A stretch of DNA of 21,245 bases from the IMG/VR virus record IMGVR_UViG_3300031787_000976, positions 1 through 21,245 of that record, one strand, 5' to 3'. The DNA is from a virus. Positions 981 to 11,804 of this stretch are shown here, in pieces (the first letter of the stretch is position 1; each line of letters starts with the position of its first letter). The notes beneath the pieces were generated by a model. That model did no database searches. It saw only the letters and a list, made by a program, of their open reading frames with translations, and was not told where the DNA came from. The position numbers were made by a program, and so were the translations under genes.

Positions 981-1041
981 TGGCACGATTTTTGCGGGCG
1001 CGGCCCTCGCCCTAAGTGCTGCCGTAGCAACAACTTAGGAT
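981..1041. repeat. Intergenic palindromic element, copy E1
   Basis: The 33-nt stem-loop is at 1009-1041: left arm GCCCTAAGT, 15-nt loop, right arm ACTTAGGAT. It is preceded on the plus strand by TGGCACGATTTTTGC (981-995) and a GC-rich GCGGGCGCGG run. It sits after the stop of the gene at 1077-1481 and before the next minus promoter. Confidence 0.8.
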
Positions 1042-1076
1042 TGAGGGTTTTGCGAAACTGCAACCTTTACTTTCTT

Positions 1077-1481
1077 TTAGAAAAGGTGTGCTACACCAGC
1101 CTTGAAGAGCGTAGTACCAAGCAGTGGACGACGACAGTTAGTAACACGTTCAGCATAAAAGTTACGCACAGTACCATCGGGACTCTCACCAGTGATAAGG
1201 TGGCGAGTACGCTTGAAGTTATCATCGTAACGTCGATAGTTGCTGGTTGCGTTGAGTTTACGAATCTGTTCGTCACTAAGAGTGTGAACATCAACAATCT
1301 TGACAAGGAAACGCTCTGGCTCACCCTTGTTAGGCTGGAGATAGTCAAAGTTGAAAACATCTCCAACATTAGCACACGACAGATTAGCATTCACTCCACG
1401 ATAAACGTGATACATAGCAAATGCGAGAAGACAACCCATAACAGCCACAGCAATCGAACCAAAAACAATCAAGTCGTTCAT
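1077..1481 (-). CDS. Membrane-anchored hypothetical protein (134 aa)
   Basis: Residues about 3-27 form one hydrophobic helix (FGSIAVAVMGCLLAFAMYHV), followed by a soluble domain of about 105 residues beginning VGDVFNFDYLQP and ending in an Arg-rich CRRPLLGTTLFKAGVAHLF tail. The soluble part is strand-rich and could be a small beta-barrel, but I do not recognise a family. The ATG follows AAAGG at good spacing, and promoter 1520-1548 drives it. Repeat E1 follows its stop. It is likely an inner-membrane protein with a cytoplasmic or periplasmic domain; orientation is unclear. Confidence 0.75.
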   Translation of the reverse strand: MNDLIVFGSIAVAVMGCLLAFAMYHVYRGVNANLSCANVGDVFNFDYLQPNKGEPERFLVKIVDVHTLSDEQIRKLNATSNYRRYDDNFKRTRHLITGESPDGTVRNFYAERVTNCRRPLLGTTLFKAGVAHLF

Positions 1482-1519
1482 AAGAACCTTTCTGTTAGTT
1501 AGAAACCCTCAATGTCACA

Positions 1520-1548
1520 AGTCTACACTACTTATCGTCAGTTGTCAA
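1520..1548 (-). promoter_or_regulatory. Sigma70-type promoter for the membrane-anchored gene
   Basis: TTGACA at 1543-1548, 17-bp spacer with GACGATAAG, TAGACT at 1520-1525. The TGA stop of the upstream gene (1545-1547) lies inside the -35. Confidence 0.7.
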
Positions 1549-1808
1549 GCGGCCACTTTAGAAAAGTTTTCTTGCCAATATTCTTGCATTTCTGCAAGGT
1601 TTACGCCGCTATCATTCCATGCCACCCCGTCCGGCGTTTCATATGCAATATGCATGTCCTCACAACCAGCACGAAGAGTAGACTTAAAACCTTCGTAATC
1701 TTTGCAACACGATGCAAGATCATTTAGACTCTCATCGTTGCTAATCCACAAACATACATTCCAAGTCTGATAGTTAGCGTATCCGTTATAGGTTCCGTCA
1801 GGACTCAT
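1545..1808 (-). CDS. DUF7249-like small phage protein (87 aa)
   Basis: The N-terminal part, YNGYANYQTWNVCLWISNDE, matches the well-known phage pattern YNGx(S/T)NxxTWxVxLWxxND of a widespread small protein family of unknown function (I believe DUF7249). The rest is acidic and helical. The ATG at 1808 follows GAAGAAGAGG. Promoter 1839-1866 precedes it. Its last codons GCC GCT TGA merge into the next promoter, as they also do in the gene at 122-601. Confidence 0.8.
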   Translation of the reverse strand: MSPDGTYNGYANYQTWNVCLWISNDESLNDLASCCKDYEGFKSTLRAGCEDMHIAYETPDGVAWNDSGVNLAEMQEYWQENFSKVAA

Positions 1809-1838
1809 CTTAGCACCTCTTCTTCTTGTGATACCCTA

Positions 1839-1866
1839 ATCATAGCATACTTATCGGCCAATGCAA
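1839..1866 (-). promoter_or_regulatory. Sigma70-type promoter for the DUF7249-like gene
   Basis: TTGCAT at 1861-1866, 16-bp spacer with GGCCGATAAG, TATGAT at 1839-1844. The -35 and spacer are nearly identical to those of the promoter at 3164-3191. Confidence 0.65.
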
Positions 1867-1888
1867 GAGGCGTTCTTGAAAAATAATT

Positions 1889-1971
1889 GCATGCCAAAAA
1901 AGAAAAAACTTTGGCACGATTTTTGCGGCCGCGGCCTCGTCGTAAGTCCTTATCCACCAACAACTTGCGAC
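1889..1971. repeat. Intergenic palindromic element, copy E2
   Basis: Stem-loop at 1939-1971 (GTCGTAAGT, 15-nt loop, ACTTGCGAC). Upstream on the plus strand are ATGCCAAA and TTTGGCAC arms facing each other, then TGGCACGATTTTTGC (1912-1926) and GCGGCCGCGG. The stop codon of the gene at 1950-2105 lies inside the loop. Confidence 0.82.
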
Positions 1972-2105
1972 AACTTTTTTTTGCTCTTTTTAGATTCGGT
2001 ATACAGTTTTTTTAAAAACTCCACATGTGCTACCGCACGATTGGTTTCCCTTTCCATGCGATCTAAAGCTTTTTGATATGGCGTTATACTTTTTTTCGTT
2101 TTCAT
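1950..2105 (-). CDS. Small basic hypothetical protein (51 aa)
   Basis: The frame opens MKTKKSITPYQKALDRMERE and ends KKSKKKLSQVVGG. It is Lys-rich and predicted almost wholly helical, so it could bind nucleic acid or a partner. It starts three bases after the stop of the gene at 2109-2402, consistent with translational coupling, and has no separate strong ribosome-binding site. The last nine residues are encoded by the right arm and loop of repeat E2, and the TAA is within the loop. Family not recognised. Confidence 0.55.
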   Translation of the reverse strand: MKTKKSITPYQKALDRMERETNRAVAHVEFLKKLYTESKKSKKKLSQVVGG

Positions 2106-2108
2106 AAA

Positions 2109-2402
2109 TCACTCAAAATCTACAAAGATCACTTGATTATATCCGCGAGGCTTGATGGTAAGCCCCGTATCGTAATCGTATGTATCGGCCTTTACTCCGG
2201 TCATACCCGCGAGAGCCTTGGCCTTTCGCACGATATTACGTTGAGACGCTTCGGAATGAATAGCAAACTCATAACGATTAGCCCAACTATAATTAGCCTC
2301 ACCACCGAAAGTATCAGTCTGTGTAACAACAACCTTCATCATCTTTTCCTTTTCTTGTGGAATATAAGCCCTAATCCAATCCTGCAAAGTCATTCCCGCC
2401 AT
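2109..2402 (-). CDS. Conserved small phage protein (97 aa)
   Basis: The core KVVVTQTDTFGGEANYSWANR, then ASQRNIVRKAKALAG and a C-terminal GYNQVIFVDFE, matches a recurrent phage protein pattern (DTFGGEANYxW) of unknown function. I place the start at the ATG at 2402, which overlaps the upstream TGA and lies six bases after a perfect GGAGG. A GTG one codon earlier is possible. It is the fourth gene of the unit that starts at the promoter 3164-3191. Confidence 0.75.
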   Translation of the reverse strand: MAGMTLQDWIRAYIPQEKEKMMKVVVTQTDTFGGEANYSWANRYEFAIHSEASQRNIVRKAKALAGMTGVKADTYDYDTGLTIKPRGYNQVIFVDFE

Positions 2403-2707
2403 CACTCACCTCCATAATAATCATCGTACATAGGGGTATCATCCCCATAGTATCCGTAGTCCTCATCAGTTCCCCACCCGCAAGATTCCATAGCCGAATC
2501 GTGGTCGCCATCCATGCTATCATCATAAAAATCATCCCAATCGTCCTCCAGTTCCTCATCATCCTTATCAAACTGAGACGCAATCTCATGATCCGCATCT
2601 GGGTGATAGTTGGAACTATCCTCATCGAAAAAAGCATTGTAATCGTCGTAGTTCATATCATCCTCGTAAGAGTTATCTGGATCGAACAGGGGATCGGGGT
2701 GACTCAT
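2402..2707 (-). CDS. Very acidic small protein (101 aa)
   Basis: The protein is dominated by Asp, Glu, Tyr, Ser and Gly with almost no basic residues, for example QFDKDDEELEDDWDDFYDD. It opens MSHPDPLFDPD, nearly the same as MSCPDPLYDYED of the gene at 5879-6046. Such composition suggests a disordered, DNA-mimic or metal-binding protein, but no family is recognised. The ATG follows AAAGGAATAAATAAT, and the 3' end carries the GGAGG site of the next gene. Confidence 0.7.
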   Translation of the reverse strand: MSHPDPLFDPDNSYEDDMNYDDYNAFFDEDSSNYHPDADHEIASQFDKDDEELEDDWDDFYDDSMDGDHDSAMESCGWGTDEDYGYYGDDTPMYDDYYGGE

Positions 2708-2712
2708 ATTAT

Positions 2713-2913
2713 TTATTCCTTTACTTTTTCGATGATAGGAGCCAGAAGTTGAGCGGTATGCTCTCCAATAACTTTAGGATTGAACAATACAAAAATGAAA
2801 AAAGTGATTACTCCAACAAACATCACACACCACAACGGAATGAAAATATATCGAAAGACCTTCCAAAAAGTATTTTCAAAACCAAAAGTATCATAATTAT
2901 GCTTACGTTTCAT
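2713..2913 (-). CDS. Single-pass membrane protein (66 aa)
   Basis: A basic N-terminus (MKRKHNYDTFGFENTFWKVFR) is followed by a strongly hydrophobic stretch at about residues 22-50 (YIFIPLWCVMFVGVITFFIF), then a short C-terminal tail ending KVKE. The positive-inside pattern puts the N-terminus in the cytoplasm. The ATG follows AAAAGGAGAATAG. Possible roles such as a holin or exclusion protein cannot be separated from sequence alone. Confidence 0.72.
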   Translation of the reverse strand: MKRKHNYDTFGFENTFWKVFRYIFIPLWCVMFVGVITFFIFVLFNPKVIGEHTAQLLAPIIEKVKE

Positions 2914-2925
2914 CTATTCTCCTTT

Positions 2926-3138
2926 TCAAGAAATATACCAAGAATTGCCTTCGTTGTCAACCATCAATTCCGCATGAGGATACATCTCATCGAAAACCTC
3001 ATCTGCAATGCCGACAACCTCTGCCCAATCCATCGGATGGCAGTCGCTCGCGTCAATCGGCTCGGCCATCGGTTCAATCGTACCCTCGTCGGCCAGTTGA
3101 GCAAGGATCATGTTCACCGTGTCGAGATCGTTCATCAT
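2926..3138 (-). CDS. Hypothetical acidic protein (70 aa)
   Basis: First gene of a five-gene unit. The longest frame extends to 3186, but that part overlaps the promoter. The ATG at 3138 has AAGGAG eight bases upstream and is the better start. The protein reads MMNDLDTVNMILAQLADEG and ends ELMVDNEGNSWYIS; it is acidic and mixed alpha/beta. The closing DNEGNxWY resembles the DENGNEW of the protein at 8384-8557, perhaps a small shared strand-turn motif. Function unknown. Confidence 0.68.
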   Translation of the reverse strand: MMNDLDTVNMILAQLADEGTIEPMAEPIDASDCHPMDWAEVVGIADEVFDEMYPHAELMVDNEGNSWYIS

Positions 3139-3163
3139 TGTCGTTTCTCCTTGTGATGCGTTC

Positions 3164-3191
3164 ATTCTACACTTATTATCGGCCAATGCAA
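3164..3191 (-). promoter_or_regulatory. Sigma70-type promoter for the five-gene unit 3138 to 1950
   Basis: TTGCAT at 3186-3191, 16-bp spacer with GGCCGATAAT, TAGAAT at 3164-3169. Confidence 0.7.
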
Positions 3192-3221
3192 GCGAAATCT
3201 TTTTAAAAAATAAAAAAATAA

Positions 3222-3320
3222 TCGCGTGCCAAACGAAGAAAAATTTTTGTATCAGACTTTGGCACCAAAAATGCGCCCGCCCGATTTGCTCTAAGTCCTT
3301 GTGGAGTAAGAACTTACAAC
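3222..3320. repeat. Intergenic palindromic element, copy E3
   Basis: Imperfect stem-loop at 3288-3320 (GCTCTAAGT, 15-nt loop, ACTTACAAC). It is preceded on the plus strand by GTGCCAAA, then TTTGGCACCAAAAATGC and GCGCCCGCCCG. It follows the stop of the lipoprotein gene at 3335. Confidence 0.75.
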
Positions 3321-3334
3321 AAATCCTTAGATTT

Positions 3335-3607
3335 TTATTCTAAGCATTTAGGGCAAACAAAATGACAACCTTTACAAGAAGCCATTTTAACAGGTTCATT
3401 ATTTTCATTGAGTGAAGTATATACCATTATTTTTTCAGGTAATTTATTTTCTTCCGTAGATACTGGTAGCGTGTCTAAATACTGTCCAAGAGGATATTCA
3501 ATATTGGTATGATTATTAACTGGCTTTGAACATCCCGAAACAAAAAATGTTACAACGCACCCAGCGATAAAACAAAAGGTCAGCAAAATCTTATCATTCC
3601 TGGTCAT
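3335..3607 (-). CDS. Lipoprotein with C-terminal cysteine cluster (90 aa)
   Basis: The N-terminus MTRNDKILLTFCFIAGCVV leads into a lipobox, VSGC, with Cys about residue 26, so signal peptidase II processing and lipid anchoring are expected. The mature part is polar and ends in CKGCHFVCPKCLE. This holds a CxxCH plus a second CxxC, which could be a small zinc ribbon or, since the protein is exported, a haem c attachment site. Its ATG overlaps the end of the small membrane ORF upstream by 14 nt. It is the last gene of a four-gene unit with two tiny membrane proteins. Function unknown; a lysis (outer spanin) or superinfection role is only a guess. Confidence 0.75.
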   Translation of the reverse strand: MTRNDKILLTFCFIAGCVVTFFVSGCSKPVNNHTNIEYPLGQYLDTLPVSTEENKLPEKIMVYTSLNENNEPVKMASCKGCHFVCPKCLE

Positions 3608-3710
3608 TTAAATCTTCCTTTACTGGAAAAACAAGATCACAAACAAACCAACTACACACAACACCAACAATAAATCCCACGCCTATACTTACCCAGTTAA
3701 TATCGACCAT
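3594..3710 (-). CDS. Tiny membrane protein (38 aa)
   Basis: Reads MVDINWVSIGVGFIVGVV then CSWFVCDLVFPVKEDLNDQE: one transmembrane helix and a short acidic tail. The ATG follows AAAGGGGCCAAGG, a clear ribosome-binding site, and the 3' end overlaps the lipoprotein start by 14 nt. Size and placement next to a lipoprotein gene resemble small lysis or regulatory membrane peptides, but there is no diagnostic motif. Confidence 0.6.
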   Translation of the reverse strand: MVDINWVSIGVGFIVGVVCSWFVCDLVFPVKEDLNDQE

Positions 3711-3731
3711 CCTTGGCCCCTTTCTTTAATT

Positions 3732-3884
3732 TTATTCCCTAATAAACTTTCCCAACTTTTTAAGATCCTCGGCCCTTACTTGTTTCTGCCAAGTTTCATT
3801 AGCCTCATGAGCAATATCCAAAATGGCCATGATAAAACCACCAAGAATAATAGTAAAAAATCCGACCATAATCACTACCATCAT
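3732..3884 (-). CDS. Small membrane protein (50 aa)
   Basis: Reads MMVVIMVGFFTIILGGFIMA followed by a charged amphipathic tail ending KKLGKFIRE. There is one N-terminal transmembrane helix and a roughly 28-residue helical tail. The first ATG overlaps the upstream TGA as ATGA, so translation is probably coupled to the gene at 3881-4192. It has a holin-like size but no family match that I recognise. Confidence 0.6.
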   Translation of the reverse strand: MMVVIMVGFFTIILGGFIMAILDIAHEANETWQKQVRAEDLKKLGKFIRE

Positions 3885-4192
3885 GCTTGCACCACCATAC
3901 CTTCCATAAAGGGATATTCCTTACCATTCAATTTTACAAACCATTCATATTTACGCTGATACACGCGAACGGGGCTATACTGGTTAATTCTATCCTTCGT
4001 GGTACTGGTTTGCCAACCCCCCGTTTGAAGGGTTACAGTATCATCGGGGTGAATCTGTACAACATAGGTGCTATGAAGCAAAATCCCTACGCTACCATCG
4101 TGAAGGATTTCCGCATAGGTATTATTACCAATCTTTCGGCTATCCTTATTACGCTTGCCCCTAACCATTGTAACCGCTTCGGCGTGATTCAT
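3881..4192 (-). CDS. Conserved phage hypothetical protein (103 aa)
   Basis: The pattern RKIGNNTYAEILHDGSVGI, LHSTYVVQI, DTVTLQTGGWQTSTTKDRIN and a C-terminal WFVKLNGKEYPF is a recurrent architecture in small phage proteins: a beta-rich domain with a GGWxTxTTKxRIN signature. No biochemical function is known to me. It is the first gene of the unit that includes two tiny membrane proteins and the lipoprotein. Start ATG at 4192, after a long purine-rich leader. Confidence 0.78.
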   Translation of the reverse strand: MNHAEAVTMVRGKRNKDSRKIGNNTYAEILHDGSVGILLHSTYVVQIHPDDTVTLQTGGWQTSTTKDRINQYSPVRVYQRKYEWFVKLNGKEYPFMEGMVVQA

Positions 4193-4226
4193 TTTCTTTC
4201 TCTCTTGTGATACCCTTTATATCGTA

Positions 4227-4254
4227 ATTCTACGCTCTAAACTTTACTTGTCAA
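4227..4254 (-). promoter_or_regulatory. Sigma70-type promoter for the membrane/lipoprotein unit
   Basis: TTGACA at 4249-4254, 16-bp spacer AGTAAAGTTTAGAGCG, TAGAAT at 4227-4232, followed by TACGATATAA. The TGA stop of the 49-residue ORF upstream (4251-4253) lies inside the -35. Confidence 0.72.
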
Positions 4255-4400
4255 TCCCAAAACTTCGGATGGTATGTTTTTAGTAGGTTTTGGTCGATTC
4301 CTGTTTTTTTTGACGCTAGAATCTTAGCCTGTTGCCGATTCAATCCAGAAAAAGAGCCAACAAACCGACCATCCACTGTCCAAAAGTTAAAACTTCTCAT
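4251..4400 (-). CDS. Small hypothetical protein (49 aa)
   Basis: Reads MRSFNFWTVDGRFVGSFSGL, then NRQQAKILASKKTGIDQNLL and ends KTYHPKFWD. The short strand-turn-strand followed by a helix could be a small compact fold. The ATG follows AAGGGAAAAAG, and the gene is 12 bases downstream of the stop of 4413-4622. Its TGA stop is within the next promoter's -35. Not recognised. Confidence 0.6.
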   Translation of the reverse strand: MRSFNFWTVDGRFVGSFSGLNRQQAKILASKKTGIDQNLLKTYHPKFWD

Positions 4401-4412
4401 TTTCTTTTTCCC

Positions 4413-4622
4413 TTAGTAATACAAACCCTTATGAATATTTCCGTGCCAGTTTACTTTGTTTGAAATATAGAACATAGTATCATTCGCATACAATTCTAAA
4501 GCGTATCCCTTTTCTGTGTAGAAAGATCGTGCATCCTCGAAGTTATCAAAGATATAGCAACGCTCCATGTTAACTGGAGGAAATGAATCATCCTCTATTA
4601 CGAATACATACTTGGTTTTCAC
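4413..4622 (-). CDS. Hypothetical protein (69 aa), GTG start
   Basis: Reads from GTG at 4622, after AAGGAAA at good spacing. It begins with a strand KYVFVIEDD, then RCYIFDNFEDARSFYTEKGY, an alpha/beta pattern. The wording resembles the FDNxEDAxxF segments found in small phage proteins, and the neighbour at 4956-5147 has a comparable FFDNLKEVEVFVKSEEY segment, so these may be distant relatives. Function unknown. Confidence 0.68.
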   Translation of the reverse strand: MKTKYVFVIEDDSFPPVNMERCYIFDNFEDARSFYTEKGYALELYANDTMFYISNKVNWHGNIHKGLYY

Positions 4623-4642
4623 GATATGGTTTCCTTAGTGGG

Positions 4643-4897
4643 TTAGTTAAGCAAGTTAATGCAAAGTTCTTTGTATTCTCGGTATAGATGCTCTTCATTG
4701 TCGCAAGAACATATAATCTCACGACACGCAACATCATCACTGCGAAGCACAACCCTAATATAGTATTCGTATCTTTCGTCAGGGATTTTATCGTCGCCAA
4801 TCTTGTAGGTGGATAGATCGCAAACGTGTTCTATCTTTTTGGTAATGTATAAGATATGATTCTTGTTGAAGATTTTGCCACAAATACTCACAAACAT
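4643..4897 (-). CDS. Hypothetical protein (84 aa)
   Basis: First gene of a three-gene unit (4897 to 4251). Reads MFVSICGKIFNKNHILYITK, with a central YEYYIRVVLRSDDVACREII and a C-terminal helix HLYREYKELCINLLN. The start resembles small beta-sandwich proteins that open with a strand, a turn and Ixxxxxxxxh...V. It contains five cysteines without a clear zinc pattern. The ATG follows AAGGGAGAAAG. Not recognised. Confidence 0.7.
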   Translation of the reverse strand: MFVSICGKIFNKNHILYITKKIEHVCDLSTYKIGDDKIPDERYEYYIRVVLRSDDVACREIICSCDNEEHLYREYKELCINLLN

Positions 4898-4930
4898 TTT
4901 CTTTCTCCCTTGGATACTATTCTTATCGGT

Positions 4931-4959
4931 ATTCTACACTCTAAACTTTAGTTTGTCAA
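4931..4959 (-). promoter_or_regulatory. Sigma70-type promoter for the 4897 to 4251 unit
   Basis: TTGACA at 4954-4959, 17-bp spacer AACTAAAGTTTAGAGTG, TAGAAT at 4931-4936, then ACCGATAAG. The TGA stop of the upstream gene (4956-4958) is inside the -35. Confidence 0.75.
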
Positions 4960-5147
4960 CCTTGCATTGCAGCGATTATGTATTCCTCGCTTTTTACGAA
5001 AACCTCAACCTCTTTCAGATTGTCAAAAAATCGAATGAAAATTGGATATTCGGGACCAACAATCACTTTCCATTGTGACCACGAATAGAACTTCGGAAGA
5101 AGTTTGTAGCCAAGTTTGTTCAGTCTCTTTTCAAGGTTCTTTTTCAT
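4956..5147 (-). CDS. Hypothetical protein (63 aa)
   Basis: I use the ATG at 5147. A TTG at 5153 would add two residues. The leader GAGAGTTGATAATG is shared with the gene at 8630-8764. The protein begins MKKNLEKRLNKLGYKLLPKF and continues IFIRFFDNLKEVEVFVKSEE, an alpha/beta fold with a basic N-terminal helix. Its stop is buried in the next promoter. Function unknown. Confidence 0.68.
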   Translation of the reverse strand: MKKNLEKRLNKLGYKLLPKFYSWSQWKVIVGPEYPIFIRFFDNLKEVEVFVKSEEYIIAAMQG

Positions 5148-5175
5148 TATCAACTCTCTTTTCTCTTATATCGAC

Positions 5176-5204
5176 ATTCTACCGTGCAAACTTTAGTTCG
5201 TCAA
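5176..5204 (-). promoter_or_regulatory. Sigma70-type promoter for 4956-5147
   Basis: TTGACG at 5199-5204, 17-bp spacer starting AACTAAAG, TAGAAT at 5176-5181, followed by GTCGATATAAG. Confidence 0.7.
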
Positions 5205-5223
5205 GAAAAAAATAGAAAAATAA

Positions 5224-5311
5224 TCGCGTACCAAATAAGAAATATTTTTTTGGCACGATTTTCGCGCCCGCCGCCCGCGTCGTAAGTCCTTGTCCCATCA
5301 CAACTTAGGAC
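5224..5311. repeat. Intergenic palindromic element, copy E4
   Basis: Stem-loop at 5279-5311 (GTCGTAAGT, 15-nt loop, ACTTAGGAC). It is preceded by GTACCAAA and TTTGGCAC arms, TGGCACGATTTTCGC (5251-5265) and GCGCCCGCCGCCCGC. The TGA of the gene at 5298-5474 falls inside the loop. Confidence 0.8.
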
Positions 5312-5474
5312 AAGTTTCGGCTACTGTATTAGTGTACAGTGAATAAAAATCGTCAAGAGGTATATCTTCGTACACTAGCACACCCTGAACATATAAACAG
5401 TATAGTGTACTGTTATTCAGTGATACTGTCCACACCACCTTGCGGTTATCGTTCGTCCAATTTTTCGGATTCAT
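5298..5474 (-). CDS. Small hypothetical protein (58 aa) ending in repeat E4
   Basis: Reads MNPKNWTNDNRKVVWTVSLN, then LYCLYVQGVLVYEDIPLDDF and ends VAETCPKL. It starts two bases after the stop of 5477-5809, with GAGGAC as the likely ribosome-binding site, so it is coupled to that gene. The last codons, including CCT AAG TTG TGA, are the right arm and loop of repeat E4. This is the same arrangement as the gene at 1950-2105. Family not recognised. Confidence 0.55.
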   Translation of the reverse strand: MNPKNWTNDNRKVVWTVSLNNSTLYCLYVQGVLVYEDIPLDDFYSLYTNTVAETCPKL

Positions 5475-5476
5475 TT

Positions 5477-5809
5477 TCAGTCCTCAAAAGCAAACGGGGA
5501 AACTTCTTCACCACAAGCGAGAATCGCACCATATTGCGACATCAGAGCCTCAACACGCTCGCTACTTCCGGGCTTGCCCACTTTCACGATCATAGTATCA
5601 TCACCACCATTATAGCGAGGATCAACTTTTTCGATCTTACGCTTGCCGATATTACGGAGAGCCTTACGATTGAACTTCAAAATCTTTTCGCTACGAATAG
5701 GTCCGTATTCACCATTAGCCAGGCTAGGTTGACAAGGAATCGCAATTCCAAGAAAGCACATACGAGCCTGACGCTTTGCATCTTCGATGATCTTGAACTT
5801 AGTAGCCAT
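5477..5809 (-). CDS. Hypothetical protein (110 aa)
   Basis: Reads MATKFKIIEDAKRQARMCFL and includes a basic helix NRKALRNIGKRKIEKVDPRY and a C-terminal GKPGSSERVEALMSQYGAIL. The balance of basic helices and short strands would suit a nucleic-acid or partner-binding protein, but I do not recognise it. The ATG follows AGGAGAAATAG at nine bases. Promoter 5835-5863 precedes it. Confidence 0.72.
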   Translation of the reverse strand: MATKFKIIEDAKRQARMCFLGIAIPCQPSLANGEYGPIRSEKILKFNRKALRNIGKRKIEKVDPRYNGGDDTMIVKVGKPGSSERVEALMSQYGAILACGEEVSPFAFED

Positions 5810-5834
5810 TTTCTATTTCTCCTGTGTTGCTTGG

Positions 5835-5863
5835 ATTCTAGGAAAGTTTTTTTGGATCGTCAA
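5835..5863 (-). promoter_or_regulatory. Sigma70-type promoter for 5477-5809
   Basis: TTGACG at 5858-5863, 17-bp spacer, TAGAAT at 5835-5840. It has no CGATA box. A small ACCCC/GGGGT hairpin lies between it and the stop of 5879-6046. Confidence 0.68.
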
Positions 5864-5878
5864 CCCCTCTTATGGGGG

Positions 5879-6046
5879 TCACCATCCATTTCTACGATAT
5901 TCTTCACGCAAGGCTTCTTCTTCCTCACGTTGGCTAAGGGTAACGGCTGGGCCATACCCCATCAGATAAGCATCCTTAGCAGCATCATAGCCATCATCGG
6001 AATCCTCAAAATCTTCGTAGTCATAAAGGGGGTCAGGGCAACTCAT
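5879..6046 (-). CDS. Small acidic protein (55 aa) with MSxPDPL opening
   Basis: Reads MSCPDPLYDYEDFEDSDDGY, then DAAKDAYLMGYGPAVTLSQR and a charged helix EEEEALREEYRRNGW. It is too short for default screens, but it has a clear AAAAGGAGAAAG ribosome-binding site and its own promoter (6085-6112). The opening is shared with the 101-residue acidic protein at 2402-2707 (MSHPDPLFD), suggesting a common origin or a shared N-terminal recognition tag. Function unknown. Confidence 0.65.
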   Translation of the reverse strand: MSCPDPLYDYEDFEDSDDGYDAAKDAYLMGYGPAVTLSQREEEEALREEYRRNGW

Positions 6047-6084
6047 TTTCTTTCTCCTTTTCTCTTTCTTTCTCTTATATCGAC

Positions 6085-6112
6085 ATTATACAGACCGTTC
6101 TTTAGGTTGCAA
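6085..6112 (-). promoter_or_regulatory. Sigma70-type promoter for 5879-6046
   Basis: TTGCAA at 6107-6112, 16-bp spacer starting CCTAAAG, TATAAT at 6085-6090, then GTCGATATAAG. Confidence 0.7.
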
Positions 6113-6206
6113 GCAAAAAATCCAGATTTTTATGTCAAGAGATTTTGACAAAACTTTAGGCTTTTTTGATGCTTTTCGGCACTCCGTATGCTATAAAGCA
6201 AATATT

Positions 6207-6255
6207 GTGCCAAAACTGATTAGTCGTAACCTCTTGTTTCTCAATGGTTTACGTC
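6207..6255. repeat. Intergenic palindromic element, copy E5a
   Basis: GTGCCAAA then a degenerate 33-nt stem-loop at 6223-6255 (GTCGTAACC, 15-nt loop, GTTTACGTC). It is followed by AAAAAATGCGCCCGC, and is the left member of a tandem pair with E5b. Confidence 0.72.
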
Positions 6256-6276
6256 AAAAAATGCGCCCGCAAATTT

Positions 6277-6309
6277 GTCCTAAGTCCTTATCTCACAAAG
6301 GTTTACGAC
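6277..6309. repeat. Intergenic palindromic element, copy E5b
   Basis: Stem-loop GTCCTAAGT, 15-nt loop, GTTTACGAC. It begins 21 bases after E5a ends, the only tandem pair seen. The TGA stop of the HAD-like gene (6310-6312) abuts its right edge. Confidence 0.75.
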
Positions 6310-6741
6310 TCAAACTTGGAACGCTTTTACCCAGTTTACCGATTTTGCATATTCTACGTTATTAGTATCATCATCGTAGAAGTGTACAGTTTGCTTATAT
6401 ACTCTAGTTATACTATCTAGGATAATCTGTTTCTTTTGAGCAGTAGGTATATTCTTACCAAAATCCCCAGCGGTAATAATCTGGCTATTTGGGATATACA
6501 ACCCATTCTGCATAAAATACTTCTTCAATGCTTTTCGCATTTCTCCATTCTTTCCACCAGCACGAGCAGTTAGAATATATACCTTCTTATACCTAGTTAG
6601 CCTATTCTTTGTAAGCGTTGTAGGTTTAGCAGAAAGAATATCAGGAACAGCAATCTCAGGATTGATAAACTGGCTAAGGCTAGCAGTTTCCTTACCTTGG
6701 GTTATTCCAGTTGTCATATCAAAATCAAAAATACCGATCAT
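6310..6741 (-). CDS. HAD-like phosphatase (143 aa)
   Basis: Motif I of the haloacid dehalogenase superfamily is visible near residues 4-10 as IFDFDMT (DxDxT-like, with the nucleophile at the first Asp and Met before Thr). Motif II is YILTARAGG at about 55-63. A late acidic motif HFYDDDTNNVEYAK at about 119-132 fits motif IV, which holds magnesium. The length fits a minimal cap-less HAD such as phage nucleotidases or the 3'-phosphatase domain of polynucleotide kinases. The substrate is not evident. It is transcribed with the 47-residue gene upstream. Confidence 0.82.
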   Translation of the reverse strand: MIGIFDFDMTTGITQGKETASLSQFINPEIAVPDILSAKPTTLTKNRLTRYKKVYILTARAGGKNGEMRKALKKYFMQNGLYIPNSQIITAGDFGKNIPTAQKKQIILDSITRVYKQTVHFYDDDTNNVEYAKSVNWVKAFQV

Positions 6742-6754
6742 TTTATCTTTCTCT

Positions 6755-6898
6755 CTAATTATACTTCATACGAACCATCATCTCAACCACAGTCGGACGA
6801 GTCATGATGCAATTCCACATATACCAGTTGGCAAAGTTCAGCCACCCCTCACGGGTGATCTGTCCGGTCTGAAACATCTTCCACATCATCTCGTACAT
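6755..6898 (-). CDS. Small hypothetical phage protein (47 aa)
   Basis: Reads MYEMMWKMFQTGQITREGWL, then NFANWYMWNCIMTRPTVVEM. The TGxITRExW pattern in a roughly 50-residue helical protein recurs in phages, with no known function. The ATG follows AAGGAGAGAACG, and promoter 6926-6953 precedes it. The HAD-like gene starts 13 bases after its stop. Confidence 0.65.
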   Translation of the reverse strand: MYEMMWKMFQTGQITREGWLNFANWYMWNCIMTRPTVVEMMVRMKYN

Positions 6899-6925
6899 CG
6901 TTCTCTCCTTGCTTCTTATATCGAT

Positions 6926-6953
6926 ATTCTACAGAGAAATCTTTAGAAAACAA
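6926..6953 (-). promoter_or_regulatory. Sigma70-type promoter for 6898 and the HAD-like gene
   Basis: TTGTTT at 6948-6953, 16-bp spacer TCTAAAGATTTCTCTG, TAGAAT at 6926-6931, then ATCGATATAAG. Upstream lies an A-tract block ending ACATTTGTTCAGTA, shared with promoters at 8582 and 8804 and possibly an UP element. Confidence 0.62.
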
Positions 6954-6998
6954 TACTGAACAAATGTTTTTTTGGATTTTTTTTGGATAGCAAATATC

Positions 6999-7090
6999 GT
7001 GCCAAAGGCTTCTATCTAGCTGGATTAGCTGTAACTCCTTACGTCGCAACAACTTACGACAAAAAAGCGCCCGCGATTTTCGTGCCAAAT
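6999..7090. repeat. Intergenic palindromic element, copy E6 (both outer arms)
   Basis: GTGCCAAA (6999-7006), stem-loop at 7028-7060 (GCTGTAACT, 15-nt loop, ACTTACGAC), then AAAAAAGCGCCCGC and ATTTTCGTGCCAAAT. This copy shows the GC block and GTGCCAAA arm to the right of the stem. It abuts the TAA of the gene at 7093. Confidence 0.8.
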
Positions 7091-7092
7091 AT

Positions 7093-7275
7093 TTAGAGAG
7101 AACGAAAACGTCCGCCATTCCTCAATCCCTCAATCAACCTATCGTATTCATTCGTGGTGAAAATAGGATAGTATCCATCCCTTTCGCTCACGATCCATTT
7201 GCGAGAGTATCCATCCCACACGCTAGCGACAACAAGACCGAGAGCATTTGCAAGATTCACGATTTCTTGATTCAT
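7093..7275 (-). CDS. Hypothetical protein (60 aa)
   Basis: Reads MNQEIVNLANALGLVVASVW, then a strand-rich centre SRKWIVSERDGYYPIFTTNE and a C-terminal helix YDRLIEGLRNGGRFRSL. It looks like a compact alpha-beta-alpha domain. The ATG follows AAAAGGAAAAAG and promoter 7306-7333. Not recognised. Confidence 0.68.
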   Translation of the reverse strand: MNQEIVNLANALGLVVASVWDGYSRKWIVSERDGYYPIFTTNEYDRLIEGLRNGGRFRSL

Positions 7276-7305
7276 TTCTTTTTCCTTTTCTCTTGAGATA
7301 TTCTT

Positions 7306-7333
7306 ATTCTACAAATATCATCGATATATTCAA
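7306..7333 (-). promoter_or_regulatory. Sigma70-type promoter for 7093-7275
   Basis: TTGAAT at 7328-7333, 16-bp spacer with ATCGATGA, TAGAAT at 7306-7311. Confidence 0.6.
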
Positions 7334-7356
7334 GAGCATGCTTGAAATATAATTTC

Positions 7357-7426
7357 GTGCCAAACTAGATAAAATTTTTGCGCCCGCGAATTCGCCCTAA
7401 GTCATTGTGCCACAACAACTTAGAAC
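7357..7426. repeat. Intergenic palindromic element, copy E7
   Basis: GTGCCAAA, then TTTTTGCGCCCGC, then stem-loop 7394-7426 (GCCCTAAGT, 15-nt loop with TTGTGCCACAACA, ACTTAGAAC). Both GC block and outer arm are to the left. Confidence 0.78.
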
Positions 7427-7460
7427 GAATACGTCTTTTTCCAGTATGCACACCCCCCAT

Positions 7461-7673
7461 TTAGGTGGCGTGAATGAACACCTTTTCACTTACTGTACGA
7501 TTGGTCACCGTCACGATCCAATTCCTACCGCTACCATCCTCACGCATAATCGCGTTGATGATACCGATATGGGCGTTTCCCTTAGTATCAATAACCGTGC
7601 CATACTTACCCGTTCGCATAGCAGAAAAAATCTTGTCAAGGCTATTCACTACAGGCTTATTCATGGTAATCAT
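7461..7673 (-). CDS. Hypothetical protein (70 aa)
   Basis: Reads MITMNKPVVNSLDKIFSAMR, then TGKYGTVIDTKGNAHIGIIN and ends VTVTNRTVSEKVFIHAT. It is a beta-rich small domain. The proteins at 7741 and 7949 have comparable size and similar promoters, so the three may form a set of small early proteins. ATG at 7673, with a purine-rich leader and no strong Shine-Dalgarno; an in-frame ATG three codons later is possible. Confidence 0.66.
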   Translation of the reverse strand: MITMNKPVVNSLDKIFSAMRTGKYGTVIDTKGNAHIGIINAIMREDGSGRNWIVTVTNRTVSEKVFIHAT

Positions 7674-7709
7674 TTTCTTTTTCTCTTTTCTTCTTTCTTC
7701 TTTCTCTTG

Positions 7710-7738
7710 ATTCTATCAAATATTTTTTAGGTTGTCAA
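7710..7738 (-). promoter_or_regulatory. Sigma70-type promoter for 7461-7673
   Basis: TTGACA at 7733-7738, 17-bp spacer ACCTAAAAAATATTTGA, TAGAAT at 7710-7715. Confidence 0.75.
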
Positions 7739-7740
7739 TA

Positions 7741-7890
7741 CTAGAGAATCGTACCATCGCCACGGATGCGATACATGATGCCACCGATACTATACAGAAC
7801 AATACCTTCGCCAAGATGCTGCACAAATGTTGCCGAATAACCATGACGAGCAACTAGGCGACGAATGGTATTTTGAACTTGAATGGTCAT
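7741..7890 (-). CDS. Small hypothetical protein (49 aa)
   Basis: Reads MTIQVQNTIRRLVARHGYSA, then TFVQHLGEGIVLYSIGGIMY and ends RIRGDGTIL. A helix followed by a beta hairpin is likely. The ATG follows AAAAGGAAAACAA. It has its own promoter (7913-7940), and its TAG stop lies three bases before the next -35. Not recognised. Confidence 0.62.
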   Translation of the reverse strand: MTIQVQNTIRRLVARHGYSATFVQHLGEGIVLYSIGGIMYRIRGDGTIL

Positions 7891-7912
7891 TTGTTTTCCT
7901 TTTCTTTGCCTT

Positions 7913-7940
7913 ATTTTATCAATATTTTTTTGGTTGTCAA
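7913..7940 (-). promoter_or_regulatory. Sigma70-type promoter for 7741-7890
   Basis: TTGACA at 7935-7940, 16-bp spacer ACCAAAAAAATATTGA, TAAAAT at 7913-7918. It is nearly a copy of the promoter at 7710-7738. Confidence 0.72.
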
Positions 7941-7948
7941 CCCCCTTA

Positions 7949-8170
7949 TCAGCGGATCGTAATCAAACCCTTGAAGTGCGAAAATGTCAGGGTAAGCACT
8001 TTTCCAGGATACTTGTTGTTGATATACGTTTGAGCAGTGCTCTTGCGATTATCGGTAGCACTCACATACTGAACAACCGTACCATTCGCATCAGAAACTT
8101 TCCAAATCTTCTTTTGGACGATTCGCGGAAGACCAGCAAGGAAACCATTCACACTCACAACCTTTTGCAT
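7949..8170 (-). CDS. Hypothetical protein (73 aa)
   Basis: I use ATG 8170, after AGAGAGTGATAGAG. A GTG at 8179 would add three residues. The protein reads MQKVVSVNGFLAGLPRIVQK, then VSDANGTVVQYVSATDNRKS and ends TLTFSHFKGLITIR. It is basic and beta-rich. Promoter 8212-8239 precedes it. Not recognised. Confidence 0.66.
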   Translation of the reverse strand: MQKVVSVNGFLAGLPRIVQKKIWKVSDANGTVVQYVSATDNRKSTAQTYINNKYPGKVLTLTFSHFKGLITIR

Positions 8171-8211
8171 CTCTATCACTCTCTTTCTTTCTTCTCTCTT
8201 ACTCTGCCATC

Positions 8212-8239
8212 ATTATACAGTATTTATCGGCCATATCAA
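8212..8239 (-). promoter_or_regulatory. Sigma70-type promoter for 7949-8170
   Basis: TTGATA at 8234-8239, 16-bp spacer with GGCCGATAAA, TATAAT at 8212-8217. Confidence 0.7.
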
Positions 8240-8273
8240 TAGGCTTTCTTGAAAAAATCAGAAAAATAATTCT

Positions 8274-8383
8274 GTGCCAAATGAGAAGAAAAATAAAATC
8301 GTCGTAAGTCTATATGCCACAACAACTTACAGCAAAAAAGCGGCCGCAAAATCTGTGCCAATTATTTTTGGCACAACAATTGC
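8274..8383. repeat. Intergenic palindromic element, copy E8, with divergent -24/-12-like motifs
   Basis: GTGCCAA (8274-8280), stem-loop at 8301-8333 (GTCGTAAGT, 15-nt loop, ACTTACAGC), AAAAAAGCGGCCGC, then TGTGCCAATTATTTTTGGCACA, an inverted repeat. A minus-strand TGGCACAGATTTTGC (8346-8360) and a plus-strand TGGCACAACAATTGC (8369-8383) point away from each other. It abuts the TAA of the gene at 8384. Confidence 0.8.
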
Positions 8384-8557
8384 TTAGGCAAAATCTTCCT
8401 CGCCTTGGAAATCATCGAGCCACTCATCATCCGTTTCCGGATAATCGTCAGCATCACCCATGATCGGATCCCATTCCCCATCATCGTATCCGGGGATATA
8501 GTCGGCCTCATCCCCCACCATCCACTCATTGCCATTTTCGTCGATCATCTTTTCCAT
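8384..8557 (-). CDS. Small acidic protein (57 aa)
   Basis: The longest frame extends to 8620, but that part is promoter sequence. ATG 8557 has AAGAGGAGAAAAAAG upstream. It reads MEKMIDENGNEWMVGDEADY, followed by a very acidic tail ending DDEWLDDFQGEEDFA. The composition is like the acidic proteins at 2402-2707 and 5879-6046. DENGNEW resembles DNEGNSW in the protein at 2926-3138. A DNA-mimic or regulator role is possible but unproven. Confidence 0.68.
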   Translation of the reverse strand: MEKMIDENGNEWMVGDEADYIPGYDDGEWDPIMGDADDYPETDDEWLDDFQGEEDFA

Positions 8558-8581
8558 CTTTTTTCTCCTCTTGATTATCCT

Positions 8582-8610
8582 AGTATATATATCGGTTTTT
8601 ATTCTGTCAA
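8582..8610 (-). promoter_or_regulatory. Sigma70-type promoter for 8384-8557
   Basis: TTGACA at 8605-8610, 17-bp spacer with AACCGATATA, TATACT at 8582-8587. It is preceded by the A-tract block with ACATTTGTTCAGTA. Confidence 0.65.
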
Positions 8611-8629
8611 TACTGAACAAATGTTTTTT

Positions 8630-8764
8630 TCAGATCATTCTCTGAAAGTGTCTAACCTTCAGAGGATCTTGGGTAATCTTCCCTTTCTGGATAAGGTAGA
8701 TAACCTTGCCATTCTTAACCATAGCAGTGGTATTCTTGGTAATCTGAATCATCGTAAACATCAT
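8630..8764 (-). CDS. Small basic hypothetical protein (44 aa)
   Basis: Reads MMFTMIQITKNTTAMVKNGK, then VIYLIQKGKITQDPLKVRHF and ends QRMI. A beta hairpin plus a basic tail is likely. The leader GAGAGTTGATGATG matches that of 4956-5147. Its TGA is followed by the A-tract that leads into promoter 8582-8610. Not recognised. Confidence 0.58.
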   Translation of the reverse strand: MMFTMIQITKNTTAMVKNGKVIYLIQKGKITQDPLKVRHFQRMI

Positions 8765-8803
8765 CAACTCTCTCTTTCTTTCTCTCTTACTTCTTATATC
8801 GAC

Positions 8804-8831
8804 ATTATACAGGAAAATCTTTAGGCGTCAA
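8804..8831 (-). promoter_or_regulatory. Sigma70-type promoter for 8630-8764
   Basis: TTGACG at 8826-8831, 16-bp spacer CCTAAAGATTTTCCTG, TATAAT at 8804-8809, then GTCGATATAAG. Confidence 0.7.
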
Positions 8832-8877
8832 TAGTGTACAAATGTTTTTTTTAAGATTTTTTTAGAGAGCAAATATC

Positions 8878-8966
8878 ATGCCAATATTCAACAACATTCT
8901 TCTTGTCGATTCTACGATTCGTCGCAACTCCTTACGTCACAACAGTTTACGTCAAAAAAGCGGGGG
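8878..8966. repeat. Intergenic palindromic element, copy E9 (rightmost)
   Basis: CATGCCAA, then stem-loop at 8921-8953 (GTCGCAACT, 15-nt loop, GTTTACGTC) and AAAAAAGCGGGGGC. It is the last copy; none is seen in the remaining 12 kb. It lies in the gene-free interval 8765-9098. Confidence 0.75.
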
Positions 8967-9057
8967 CAATCTAGCGTCTAGTATAAAAGGGGGGGTTTTT
9001 TCATTTTGCTTATGATACCATTAGAAATACTGAAAAGCCGCGGGTGGTATAAACACA
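8967..9057. other. Gene-free stretch with G7T6 tract
   Basis: Together with promoter 8804-8831 and repeat E9 this forms the 334-base gap 8765-9098. It contains CTAGCGTCTAG and a run of seven G followed by six T (8989-9001). I see no gene, and no convincing origin or attachment site. Confidence 0.4.
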
Positions 9058-9098: not shown

Positions 9099-10301
9099 TT
9101 ATACCCATCTTCTAATACTACTAGAACCTAGTAGTTTCATGCTGCCAGTTTCTGTATTTATAGCATAGACTCTCATAATATTCCAGCCCCTCTGAAACAT
9201 ATATCTATTCAATCTAATATCAAACCCATGATTTCCACTACCCAAAGAAGCTACTAGATCCTGCCTATATACATTTGCCCATCTCAACGCTACTACCCGA
9301 TTATTTACAACCACCCGTATTAGCATTGGTTTATTCATCAACGTAGAGCTATATGCCCACCCATACACTCTATTGATATTCATAATCCCCGCACGACCAC
9401 TTATCACTTCTTGAGTCACAGGAGGATTAACAACAGGGGGAGTAGCAGACCAGCTTTCTTTTAAATATCCGCCGGTTGATACTTTATTAGTTAGAGACTC
9501 TGTTCTTATAACCTCAGACAAAAGAGCAAACTTACGCTCCACAACACTACCAGATAATGTACTTATTTTTCCAGCAACCATAGGAGCCGCCATACTAGTA
9601 CCACTCAATGTAGCATATCGACCCCCAGGCCACGTTGAATATATGAGAGTACCTCTAGCAGCTATTTGTACAGTATTAATCCCATAATTAGATGACCCCG
9701 CTAATATATATTCTGGGGTAACAGAAGCCACATTAATCATATTATCTAACTTGAAGCTGGCAGGATAGTTAGGATTAATATCCAAATCGGCTCCATTATT
9801 TCCGGCCGCACATACAATCACAATCCCAATATCATTCATTGTAACAAACTTATCCCTAACTACTGATGATCCATATGACCCCAAACTCCAGCTACAATTT
9901 ATAGTATCAATATCTTCTCCTCTATTCCTTAGTTGAATAATATAATCAAGACCCCGAAGCATAGCACTAGTACTTCCAGCCCCACCATCACTAATCATTT
10001 TTACGGCCACAATTCTCACACCAGGATTAATCCCCTGCACAATCCCAGCTATATGTGTTCCATGGCCATAAACATCCATGACATTATTATTATTACTAAT
10101 AAAATTCCATCCATGTATATCGTCTATATAACCATTGTTATCATCATCAATATTATTATTTTTAATTTCCCTAGAGTTAACCCACAAATTATCTATTAAA
10201 TCAGGATGATTAATATCAATCCCTGAATCTAATATAGCTACTGATAATACGTGTCTACTCTCTAATCTTTCTACGTTTAAGAATCCATTCTTTTTTTTCA
10301 T
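9099..10301 (-). CDS. Subtilisin-family (S8) serine protease with LEPR-XLL-like N-terminus
   Basis: A 400-residue peptidase S8. The catalytic triad is clear: Asp in VAILDSGIDINHPDL (about residue 24), His in YGHGTHIAG (about 82) and Ser in LSGTSMAAPMVAG (about 235), with the oxyanion Asn in CAAGNNGAD. Residues 1-20 read MKKKNGFLNVERLESRHVLS, like the LExRxLLS segment at the start of many planctomycete exported proteins. Here it runs straight into the catalytic domain, with no propeptide and no obvious signal peptide. After a Pro-rich linker (PPVVNPPVTQ) comes a C-terminal beta domain of about 100 residues with GWAYSS, YRQDLVASLGSGNHGFDI and MRVYAINTETG, a pattern I associate with bacterial carbohydrate-active or surface proteins. 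It has its own promoter and lies outside the early array, so it is probably an accessory (moron) gene. Confidence 0.9.
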   Translation of the reverse strand: MKKKNGFLNVERLESRHVLSVAILDSGIDINHPDLIDNLWVNSREIKNNNIDDDNNGYIDDIHGWNFISNNNNVMDVYGHGTHIAGIVQGINPGVRIVAVKMISDGGAGSTSAMLRGLDYIIQLRNRGEDIDTINCSWSLGSYGSSVVRDKFVTMNDIGIVIVCAAGNNGADLDINPNYPASFKLDNMINVASVTPEYILAGSSNYGINTVQIAARGTLIYSTWPGGRYATLSGTSMAAPMVAGKISTLSGSVVERKFALLSEVIRTESLTNKVSTGGYLKESWSATPPVVNPPVTQEVISGRAGIMNINRVYGWAYSSTLMNKPMLIRVVVNNRVVALRWANVYRQDLVASLGSGNHGFDIRLNRYMFQRGWNIMRVYAINTETGSMKLLGSSSIRRWV

Positions 10302-10709: not shown

Positions 10710-10940
10710 TTAGCCAATTTCCCCAAGGGTTTCTACTGTTGGTAACTTTGGATTCTTGCTTGGACGACCCCTTGGTTTCTTTAGTGCTAGCTTGCGTCGT
10801 TGGCGACGAACCATAGCGGTGCTAATAGTTTGACCAGTCATTTGACTTAACTTGACCGCTAATACCTCGTCGGGCATAGAATTGTGGTTATTCTTAATAA
10901 AATCCACTTCCGAATCATTCCACTTTTTATAGGTTGCCAT
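10710..10940 (-). CDS. Small HTH-like DNA-binding protein with AT-hook motif (76 aa)
   Basis: I choose ATG 10940, with AAGGA eight bases upstream. The longer frame to 11003 begins in the control region. Residues about 5-50 (KKWNDSEVDFIKNN through DEVLAVKLSQMTG and TAMVRRQRRKLAL) look like a Myb/SANT or homeodomain-like HTH with a basic recognition helix. This is followed by KKPRGRPSKNPK, which carries the RGRP core of an AT-hook. It sits divergently next to the structural operon, so it may regulate the 10941-11023 region. The family assignment is by pattern only. Confidence 0.72.
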   Translation of the reverse strand: MATYKKWNDSEVDFIKNNHNSMPDEVLAVKLSQMTGQTISTAMVRRQRRKLALKKPRGRPSKNPKLPTVETLGEIG

Positions 10941-11023
10941 AATTAATCCTTCTGTAAAGTTGACTAAAAGTGTAACTAACAGTATTATAGTATTAGTTGA
11001 CAAGTTTTGCGCAAGGAGAAAAA
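10941..11023. promoter_or_regulatory. Divergent control region with plus-strand promoter
   Basis: On the plus strand TTGACT (10960-10965), 17-bp spacer, TATTAT (10983-10988), then GCAAGGAG as the ribosome-binding site of the gene at 11024. A minus-strand TATAAT (10984-10989) overlaps the plus -10, but no matching -35 is clear. AAGTTGACTAA and TAGTTGACAAG are related sites that could bind a regulator. Confidence 0.6.
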
Positions 11024-11191
11024 ATGACTAATTCGCACTTTAATCTAGTCGATTCAGTTTTGGTCGTAAAAGCATCGGGTAGTCTCGATGTTAGCAAGGA
11101 TTTACAACTACCAGAAGGAAAAAGTATAGCACAATTAATATATGACCAAGAAAAAGAAACCACAAAAACCGACCAAAAAGCTCAAAAATAA
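11024..11191 (+). CDS. Small hypothetical protein (55 aa), first gene of the plus operon
   Basis: Starts at ATG 11024 after a perfect AAGGAG. The frame extends upstream to 10997, but that part is leader. It reads MTNSHFNLVDSVLVVKASGS, then LDVSKDLQLPEGKSIAQLIY and a charged tail ending TKTDQKAQK. The short beta segment plus acidic/basic tail suggests a partner-binding peptide. It overlaps the sigma factor gene by 50 nt in another frame. Not recognised. Confidence 0.65.
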   Translation: MTNSHFNLVDSVLVVKASGSLDVSKDLQLPEGKSIAQLIYDQEKETTKTDQKAQK

Positions 11192-11804
11192 AAGTTCTCT
11201 GCCTCATGGAGTTAGTGAAGAAGAATTTTTAAATGTATTAGATAATATTAGCAAAAGATTAGGCCACAAATTTAAATTTGGCTATCATAGCTATGATGAT
11301 ATGAAACAGCAGGCCGCCATATTTGCTCTAGAAGGCTTAGAGAAATACGATAAAAAACGCCCACTAGAAAACTTTCTTTGGACCCACGTTAGAAATAGGC
11401 TATTTAATTACAAGCGAGATAATTATCAAAGGCCCGATAAACCCTGTCTTACTTGTCCCCTATACGATGCCCACTGTAAAAAAAGCACCAATCAATGTTT
11501 AGAGTTTACAAATAAAAGTGACTGTGAATTATATAGTGCCTGGGAAACTCGTAACAATAGTAAAAAAAATATTATGAAACCCGTGGGTATAGAAGATATA
11601 GAAGATTATGGGTCCAAACACCATACCAAAGGAGATGTTTCTGAATTAGTATTTAATCAAGAAATTATCGACCTATTAGACGAAAAAATCCCCTCATCCC
11701 ACAGAGAAACATATCTCAAACTCAAATATGGCGAAAAGATTTGCAAGAGTGATCTTAATAAATTACTTCAAATAATTCGAGAAATTATAGATGAACAATA
11801 CTAA
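11142..11804 (+). CDS. T4 gp55-like RNA polymerase sigma factor with zinc insert (220 aa)
   Basis: After a Lys-rich N-terminus, residues about 45-95 (FGYHSYDDMKQQAAIFALEG through NFLWTHVRNRLFNYKRDNYQRP) match sigma region 2, the core-binding and -10 recognition helices, in the form seen in phage late sigma factors. A cysteine group follows (C102, C105, C112, C119, C128), probably zinc-binding. Then comes a C-terminal helical stretch about 172-218 (SHRETYLKLKYGEKICKSDL) in the place of region 4, but short. In T4, gp55 directs late transcription from TATAAATA promoters. The ATG at 11142 lacks a close Shine-Dalgarno, so the exact start is uncertain. Confidence 0.82.
   Translation: MTKKKKPQKPTKKLKNKSSLPHGVSEEEFLNVLDNISKRLGHKFKFGYHSYDDMKQQAAIFALEGLEKYDKKRPLENFLWTHVRNRLFNYKRDNYQRPDKPCLTCPLYDAHCKKSTNQCLEFTNKSDCELYSAWETRNNSKKNIMKPVGIEDIEDYGSKHHTKGDVSELVFNQEIIDLLDEKIPSSHRETYLKLKYGEKICKSDLNKLLQIIREIIDEQY

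Follow-up and report, generated by a model that had tools for sequence, protein, structure and literature searches.

What is the role of an intergenic 33-nt element that recurs ten times between the early operons of a single phage, at positions 981 to 8,966 of a 21,245-nt stretch of DNA? The stretch, referred to here as the window, is the IMG/VR virus record IMGVR_UViG_3300031787_000976 (positions 1 to 21,245). The original prediction for this region described ten stem-loops of 9 plus 15 plus 9 nt, with paired arm changes, a conserved loop, and GC-rich and GTGCCAAA/TTTGGCAC blocks in the flanks, and it argued for either a bound site or a structured RNA. All ten copies, with their uniform 9-15-9 layout and their flanking blocks, were borne out, and both a covariance model and a position-weight matrix recover the same ten. 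The element, which we named X1, is probably best explained overall as a site bound by a regulator that touches RNA polymerase at the early promoters.

X1 sites and their promoters

The covariance search of relatives that had been proposed did yield further copies. IMG/VR contains at least 599 relatives of the window terminase, one of which is a 122-kb record of the same virus. When the window was searched together with 64 relative loci, the covariance model built from the ten copies matched 775 times at an E value of ≤1. A position-weight matrix, refined on this set, recovered 1,039 copies across 65 loci, and 694 of these copies are distinct; at the same threshold, shuffled sequence gave 0 X1 matches. 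The terminase identified no close cultured relative of the window phage: the highest identity was approximately 32%, over a quarter of the protein, and the match with the best coverage had 24% identity across two-thirds of it. No cultured relatives were found for the early gene of the window phage. The phages that carry X1 are large freshwater phages and form a widespread clade without cultured members.

Within the 33-mer, the conserved positions are CGTAA (3 to 7), TT (12 and 13), AA (21 and 22), and TTACG (27 to 31), around a variable 7-nt center (14 to 20). The whole element is a rough palindrome composed of these four half-sites, and its orientation by the matrix is ambiguous; what had been described as a conserved loop is the inner half of this palindrome-like site. 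The paired arm changes did not hold up either. The arms pair in part in the ten window copies, and across the 694 distinct copies the nine arm pairs were 67.1% paired, compared to 65.9% after shuffling, an excess of about 1% over independent columns, while pairing over all sixteen symmetric pairs fell slightly below the shuffled value. In the subset selected by the covariance model, 80.7% were paired, compared to 77.7% after shuffling, an excess that we attribute to the selection, since the model rewards pairing. Covariation analysis of the distinct copies detected no symmetric covariation; the strongest covarying columns were adjacent to one another (8 and 9, 19 and 20, and 25 and 26). An RNA structure was rejected for the 33-mer because the unselected copies showed no compensatory change, and the Rfam search of the window matched a tRNA alone, with no family covering the 33-mer. 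Because covariation is confined to neighboring columns, as in DNA whose base steps are recognized by a protein, X1 is read as DNA rather than RNA, and on this sequence evidence it is very probably a double-stranded DNA operator.

The statistics on pairing, phasing, and promoter proximity come from the relatives rather than from the window, and the promoter calls are strong sigma70 consensus matches. Of 481 close pairs of X1 sites, 461 are exactly 53 bp apart, with a 20-nt spacer that holds a GC-rich core; since 53 bp is about five helical turns, the two sites would lie on the same face of the helix. These units sit upstream of, and are directed towards, the sigma70 promoters of small early operons: a strong sigma70 promoter lies no more than 250 nt downstream of 289 of the 343 distinct pair units, and at up to 150 nt from these units such promoters number 275 in the sense direction downstream, 25 antisense, and 5 upstream. 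In promoter coordinates, the nearer dyad center peaks at −60.5, −70.5, −81, and −93, and the troughs are nearly empty. The phasing persists if, at any one distance, an operon-first gene family contributes a single count (158 entries; resultant of 0.53 at 10.5 bp; Rayleigh P of about 5e-20). Class I activator sites of the CRP type have their centers near −61.5, −71.5, −82.5, and −92.5, on one helix face. X1 peaks at comparable upstream positions, adjacent to early sigma70 promoters and, at these whole-turn distances, on the RNA polymerase face; it differs in that each promoter has two double-dyad sites and is itself near consensus.

In every whole record the sites are limited to a single early region of 15 to 21 kb. 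G003 has 31 X1 sites at 57.8 to 75.4 kb of 200 kb, G009 has 30 at 89 to 106 kb of 154 kb, G013 has 34 at 117 to 138 kb of 223 kb, and G001 has 7. The statement that no copy occurs after 9 kb in the window also holds, and the 122-kb record of this virus agrees, with its 7 sites all at 0.8 to 4.5 kb, which corresponds to 5.3 to 8.95 kb of the window. This restriction to one early region per phage, in a fixed architecture with a promoter, does not support a MITE-like host element, one of the roles that had been suggested.

Rigid same-face pairing, direction towards the promoter, and helical phasing argue for a cooperative regulator that touches RNA polymerase. We postulate that an oligomeric regulator would bind both X1 copies cooperatively, would touch RNA polymerase as class I activators and the p4 protein of phi29 do, and would thereby control the early operons together; judged from the arrangement of the sites, contact with RNA polymerase is likely. 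Of the two forms originally proposed, the bound site, as an operator, is thus upheld by the 53-bp pairing, the sigma70 phasing, and the neighbor-only covariation, whereas the structured RNA is not, since the 694 copies show no compensatory change and the site precedes the promoter.

Operator exchange and the search for a regulator

Relatives that lack the 33-mer carry, in the same slot and before the same kind of promoter, pairs of CTGCCAAAATGGCAG placed 29 bp apart around a GC-rich core. This alternative operator, which we call X2 and for which we found no match in the literature, is nearly exclusive with X1, both in early loci and in whole records. The same operon-first gene families are found behind X1 or X2 (for example, 20 and 11 members in one family and 35 and 5 in another), and the promoters of X1-preceded and X2-preceded genes of the same families can be aligned. 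In an early-protein tree, type 2 is not one clade; six changes are required, at least two of which are forced by well-supported branches, in what is a short alignment. Similarly, over 102 shared families the type 2 record G006 is no closer to G016, also of type 2, than to the type 1 records. The scatter of type 2 and the occurrence of the same gene families behind either operator indicate that the operators were exchanged as a set, and the position of X2 before the same genes and promoters suggests that the specificity of the regulator was exchanged across the whole regulon. Replacement of the whole X1 set by X2 in relatives suggests a rewired early-gene control circuit. More tentatively, and short of an even chance, the early regulon (some 15 to 30 operators per genome) may be written in mutually exclusive operator languages that stand in front of the same promoters and genes, namely X1 pairs at 53 bp and CTGCCAAAATGGCAG pairs at 29 bp; its reader would be a phage regulator of a new type that contacts RNA polymerase, and a switch of the whole language would create immunity-like compatibility groups without classical lysogeny.

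Other features were seen near these promoters. Immediately before some promoters of the relatives L118, L130, L133, L156, L102, and L129 there is another recurrent palindrome, CCTTACGATATTTTAAGG, possibly a third operator. The early region of one relative (L129:9009-9359) contains tandem units of approximately 51 bp and 27 bp with C-runs and G-runs (ACCCCCCTAA...), and in L110, near 14130 to 14300, a tRNA-like sequence directly follows an X2-controlled promoter.

Several observations weigh against a regulator of this kind. The binding protein was not found: in a comparison of type 1 and type 2 whole records no gene family tracks the operator type, and bit-score ratios, early-locus gene association, and Pfam and PHROGs scans of 71 shared proteins revealed no type-tracking DNA-binding protein. 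The exclusivity of the two operators is not absolute, since G006, a type 2 phage, retains two X1 sites at 20.5 to 21.8 kb. With each family counted once per distance, shared descent is a smaller but still possible source of the phasing, and the promoters are predictions from consensus. In the window the copies are mostly single and lie 50 to 110 bp from the −35 element; roughly six of eight come close to the phase of the relatives, with longer distances that are partly in phase. Finally, in the relatives X-bearing promoters are no less consensus-like than X-less ones and therefore do not look activator dependent. For the same reason the sign of regulation cannot be read from the sequence: we consider that net activation or boosting by the X1 regulator has an even chance and that repression or shut-off is somewhat less probable.

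The two X1 sites of G006 (G006:C1:20526-21820) lie directly outside its X2 region and may be what a switch from type 1 left behind. Two kinds of protein encoded beside the early region are conserved candidates for the regulator but are common to both operator types: a sigma-factor-like protein (window positions 11142 to 11804, plus strand) and two proteins with weak similarity to a D5-like transcriptional regulator PHROG (positions 10710 to 11003, minus strand, and 11791 to 12618, plus strand).

Of the alternatives, the one that survives best is an immunity or shut-off operator, through which a phage repressor would silence strong early promoters late in the infection or on superinfection, with X1 and X2 as two specificities, as in heteroimmune phages of the L5/Bxb1 type. 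Promoters already near consensus are those expected of repressible promoters, and the many dispersed sites and the switching of operator type also agree with such a role; however, the sites are found further upstream than −50, clear of the −35 and −10 elements, many strong promoters in the same region have no X, and no repressor candidate was found, although lysogeny genes were not specifically sought. On balance we regard immunity as possible rather than probable. It is unlikely that the phages have borrowed sites for a host transcription factor and that X1 and X2 reflect different hosts. The failure of any phage gene to track the operator type would fit such borrowing, as would the scatter of type 2 over the phage tree, which host shifts could produce, but the roughly 15 to 30 sites per phage would need to change jointly at each host shift. 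Moreover, among 84,980 bacterial and archaeal genomes the paired pattern, scanned at the phage spacing so that single host operators would have been missed, occurred in eight stretches, which are probably binned phage contigs. It is fairly likely that the X1 regulator is encoded by the phage rather than by the host.

Recombination or mobile-element sites that shuffle gene cassettes (integron-like attC, REP/MITE, or cassette borders of the T4 PeSL type) are very unlikely: the modules do separate small, variable gene cassettes, and homologous modules could recombine, but promoter phasing and a fixed promoter-proximal side would be unexpected, and no target site duplication was seen, although this was not systematically tested. 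Least credible of all is a PeSL-like RNA stem-loop that would serve the 3′ end of the upstream operon as a terminator or a processing site, as had also been suggested, for although the arms are able to pair partly, the site follows one operon and precedes the next promoter, and the model-selected subset has its modest pairing excess, the unselected copies lack compensatory change, the arms are on average about 60% Watson-Crick paired, there is no U-tract at the 33-mer and no terminator-like site at the window copies, and neither the rigid 53-bp pairing nor the promoter phasing is given a role.

Modules of the window and the Y element

The window contains the following modules. In the first 9 kb the genes are on the minus strand, and nearly every operon has a sigma70-type promoter to the left of a copy; X1 copies and predicted promoters are all given on the minus strand, and the GC-rich cores are without strand. 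Copy 1 (1009 to 1041) has its core at 994 to 1006 and, behind it, the sigma70 promoter TTGACA-16-TATAAT (931 to 958). Behind copies 2 (1939 to 1971; core, 1925 to 1936) and 3 (3288 to 3320; core, 3273 to 3283) are sigma70-like promoters with a weak −35 element, TTGCAT-16-TATGAT (1839 to 1866) and TTGCAT-16-TAGAAT (3164 to 3191), respectively. Copy 4 (5279 to 5311) includes the last base of its core (5263 to 5279) and precedes the sigma70 promoter TTGACG-17-TAGAAT (5176 to 5204). The sole X1-X1 pair of the window (6223 to 6309) consists of copy 5 (6223 to 6255), the downstream member in the gene direction, and copy 6 (6277 to 6309), the upstream member, in a 54-bp register with a core between them (6263 to 6270) and the sigma70 promoter TTGCAA-16-TATAAT behind them (6085 to 6112). 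All copies outside this pair are single, beside a GC core, and mostly accompanied by TTTGGCAC/GTGCCAAA blocks. Copy 7 (7028 to 7060) has its core at 7067 to 7075. Copy 8 (7394 to 7426; core, 7380 to 7388) is followed by the sigma70-like promoter TTGAAT-16-TAGAAT (7306 to 7333), copy 9 (8301 to 8333; core, 8340 to 8347) by the sigma70 promoter TTGATA-16-TATAAT (8212 to 8239), and copy 10 (8921 to 8953; core, 8960 to 8967) by the sigma70 promoter TTGACG-16-TATAAT (8804 to 8831).

The TTTGGCAC/GTGCCAAA blocks are included in a second element, Y (TTGGCAYRNNNTTTGC; TTGGCAYRNNNTTTGCT). The motif TGGCAY-N5-TTGC occurs 196 times in early loci, compared to 2.7 expected, and 167 of these occurrences are within 200 nt of a 33-mer; in whole records Y is almost confined to the early region. 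It matches the sigma54 −24/−12 consensus GG-N10-GC (TTGGCAYRN4TTGCW). A directional, gene-oriented element is not what was found, since 89 copies are sense and 107 are antisense. A sigma54 promoter was rejected for the TTTGGCAC blocks on the grounds that they occur on both strands, that they tend to sigma70 phasing, and that no sigma54 gene is encoded in the 13 records searched. Weak PF00158 matches of approximately 300 amino acids are probably a clamp loader or other AAA+ proteins. Because Y lies on both strands and its sense copies tend to keep phase with the −10 element of sigma70 promoters, we read it, without certainty, as another putative operator. In the window, Y elements are found on the plus strand at 1911 to 1926 (TTGGCACGATTTTTGC, a sigma54-consensus-like GG-N10-GC sequence) and 8368 to 8383 (TTGGCACAACAATTGC) and on the minus strand at 6198 to 6213 (TTGGCACAATATTTGC), 6990 to 7005 (TTGGCACGATATTTGC), 8346 to 8361 (TTGGCACAGATTTTGC), and 8869 to 8884 (TTGGCATGATATTTGC). 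A Y-like element at 981 to 995 on the plus strand (TGGCACGATTTTTGC), preceded by C, falls outside the TTGGCAY form.

The sigma70 spacers often contain GCCGATAA, as in the window minus-strand promoters at 1839 to 1866, 3164 to 3191, and 8212 to 8239. In the relatives, CGAT is present in 66% of X-near promoters and in 24% of X-less ones, and in other promoters CGATA directly follows the −10 element; this motif may be a feature of the promoter or one more protein site. A gene for a subtilase family (S8) protease (9099 to 10301, minus strand) lies at the early-region border of the window.

Relation to known phage control systems

The dispersed X1 sites are reminiscent of the stoperators of cluster A mycobacteriophages such as L5 and Bxb1, which are numerous and scattered within one phage genome and which differ between related phages in sequence and in specificity (PMC6550527, PMC9283540). 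X1 and X2 have this many-site and specificity-group logic in common with them. Stoperators, however, are asymmetric 13-mers that are bound by monomers, oriented with transcription, and found mostly away from promoters, where they block elongation, whereas X1 is a 33-bp near-palindrome in 53-bp pairs that is phased to a promoter and that in most units, as counted above, has a promoter close by. The suggestion of a stoperator therefore does not stand in its strict sense.

The p4 sites of phi29 are inverted repeats with a long spacer. The p4 protein contacts the alpha subunit of RNA polymerase upstream of host-type promoters, activating one and repressing another (PMC4461284). A phage regulator placed upstream and in contact with RNA polymerase is likewise what we propose for X1; however, phi29 has few such sites, whereas here there are 15 to 34 sites per phage, which are paired and have alternative specificities. 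The PeSL of T4-type phages that Arbiol et al. reportedly described in 2010 (cited in PMC4177764) is said to be an intergenic cassette of a hairpin-like sequence and an early promoter, located between small early genes, with the stem-loop taken as a terminator. That cassette resembles the X1 module in joining a promoter to a palindrome. The two differ in that the stem is not conserved here, with neither compensatory change nor a terminator-like site at the copies, and in that X1, as a DNA site, keeps a helical phase with the promoter. As predicted from sequence, the X1 system is a set of dispersed phage operators that lies outside both the stoperator and the PeSL families.

The early-region dark-matter genes of large phages are usually studied singly; the DNA examined here shows one coordinately controlled regulon, and related phages can swap its control code as a whole, with the genes and promoters left in place. 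X1 and X2 provide a sequence signature for locating early regions in uncultured phages. They also make it testable how a regulator with dozens of targets changes its specificity without breaking its network, and whether it defines compatibility or immunity groups among phages.

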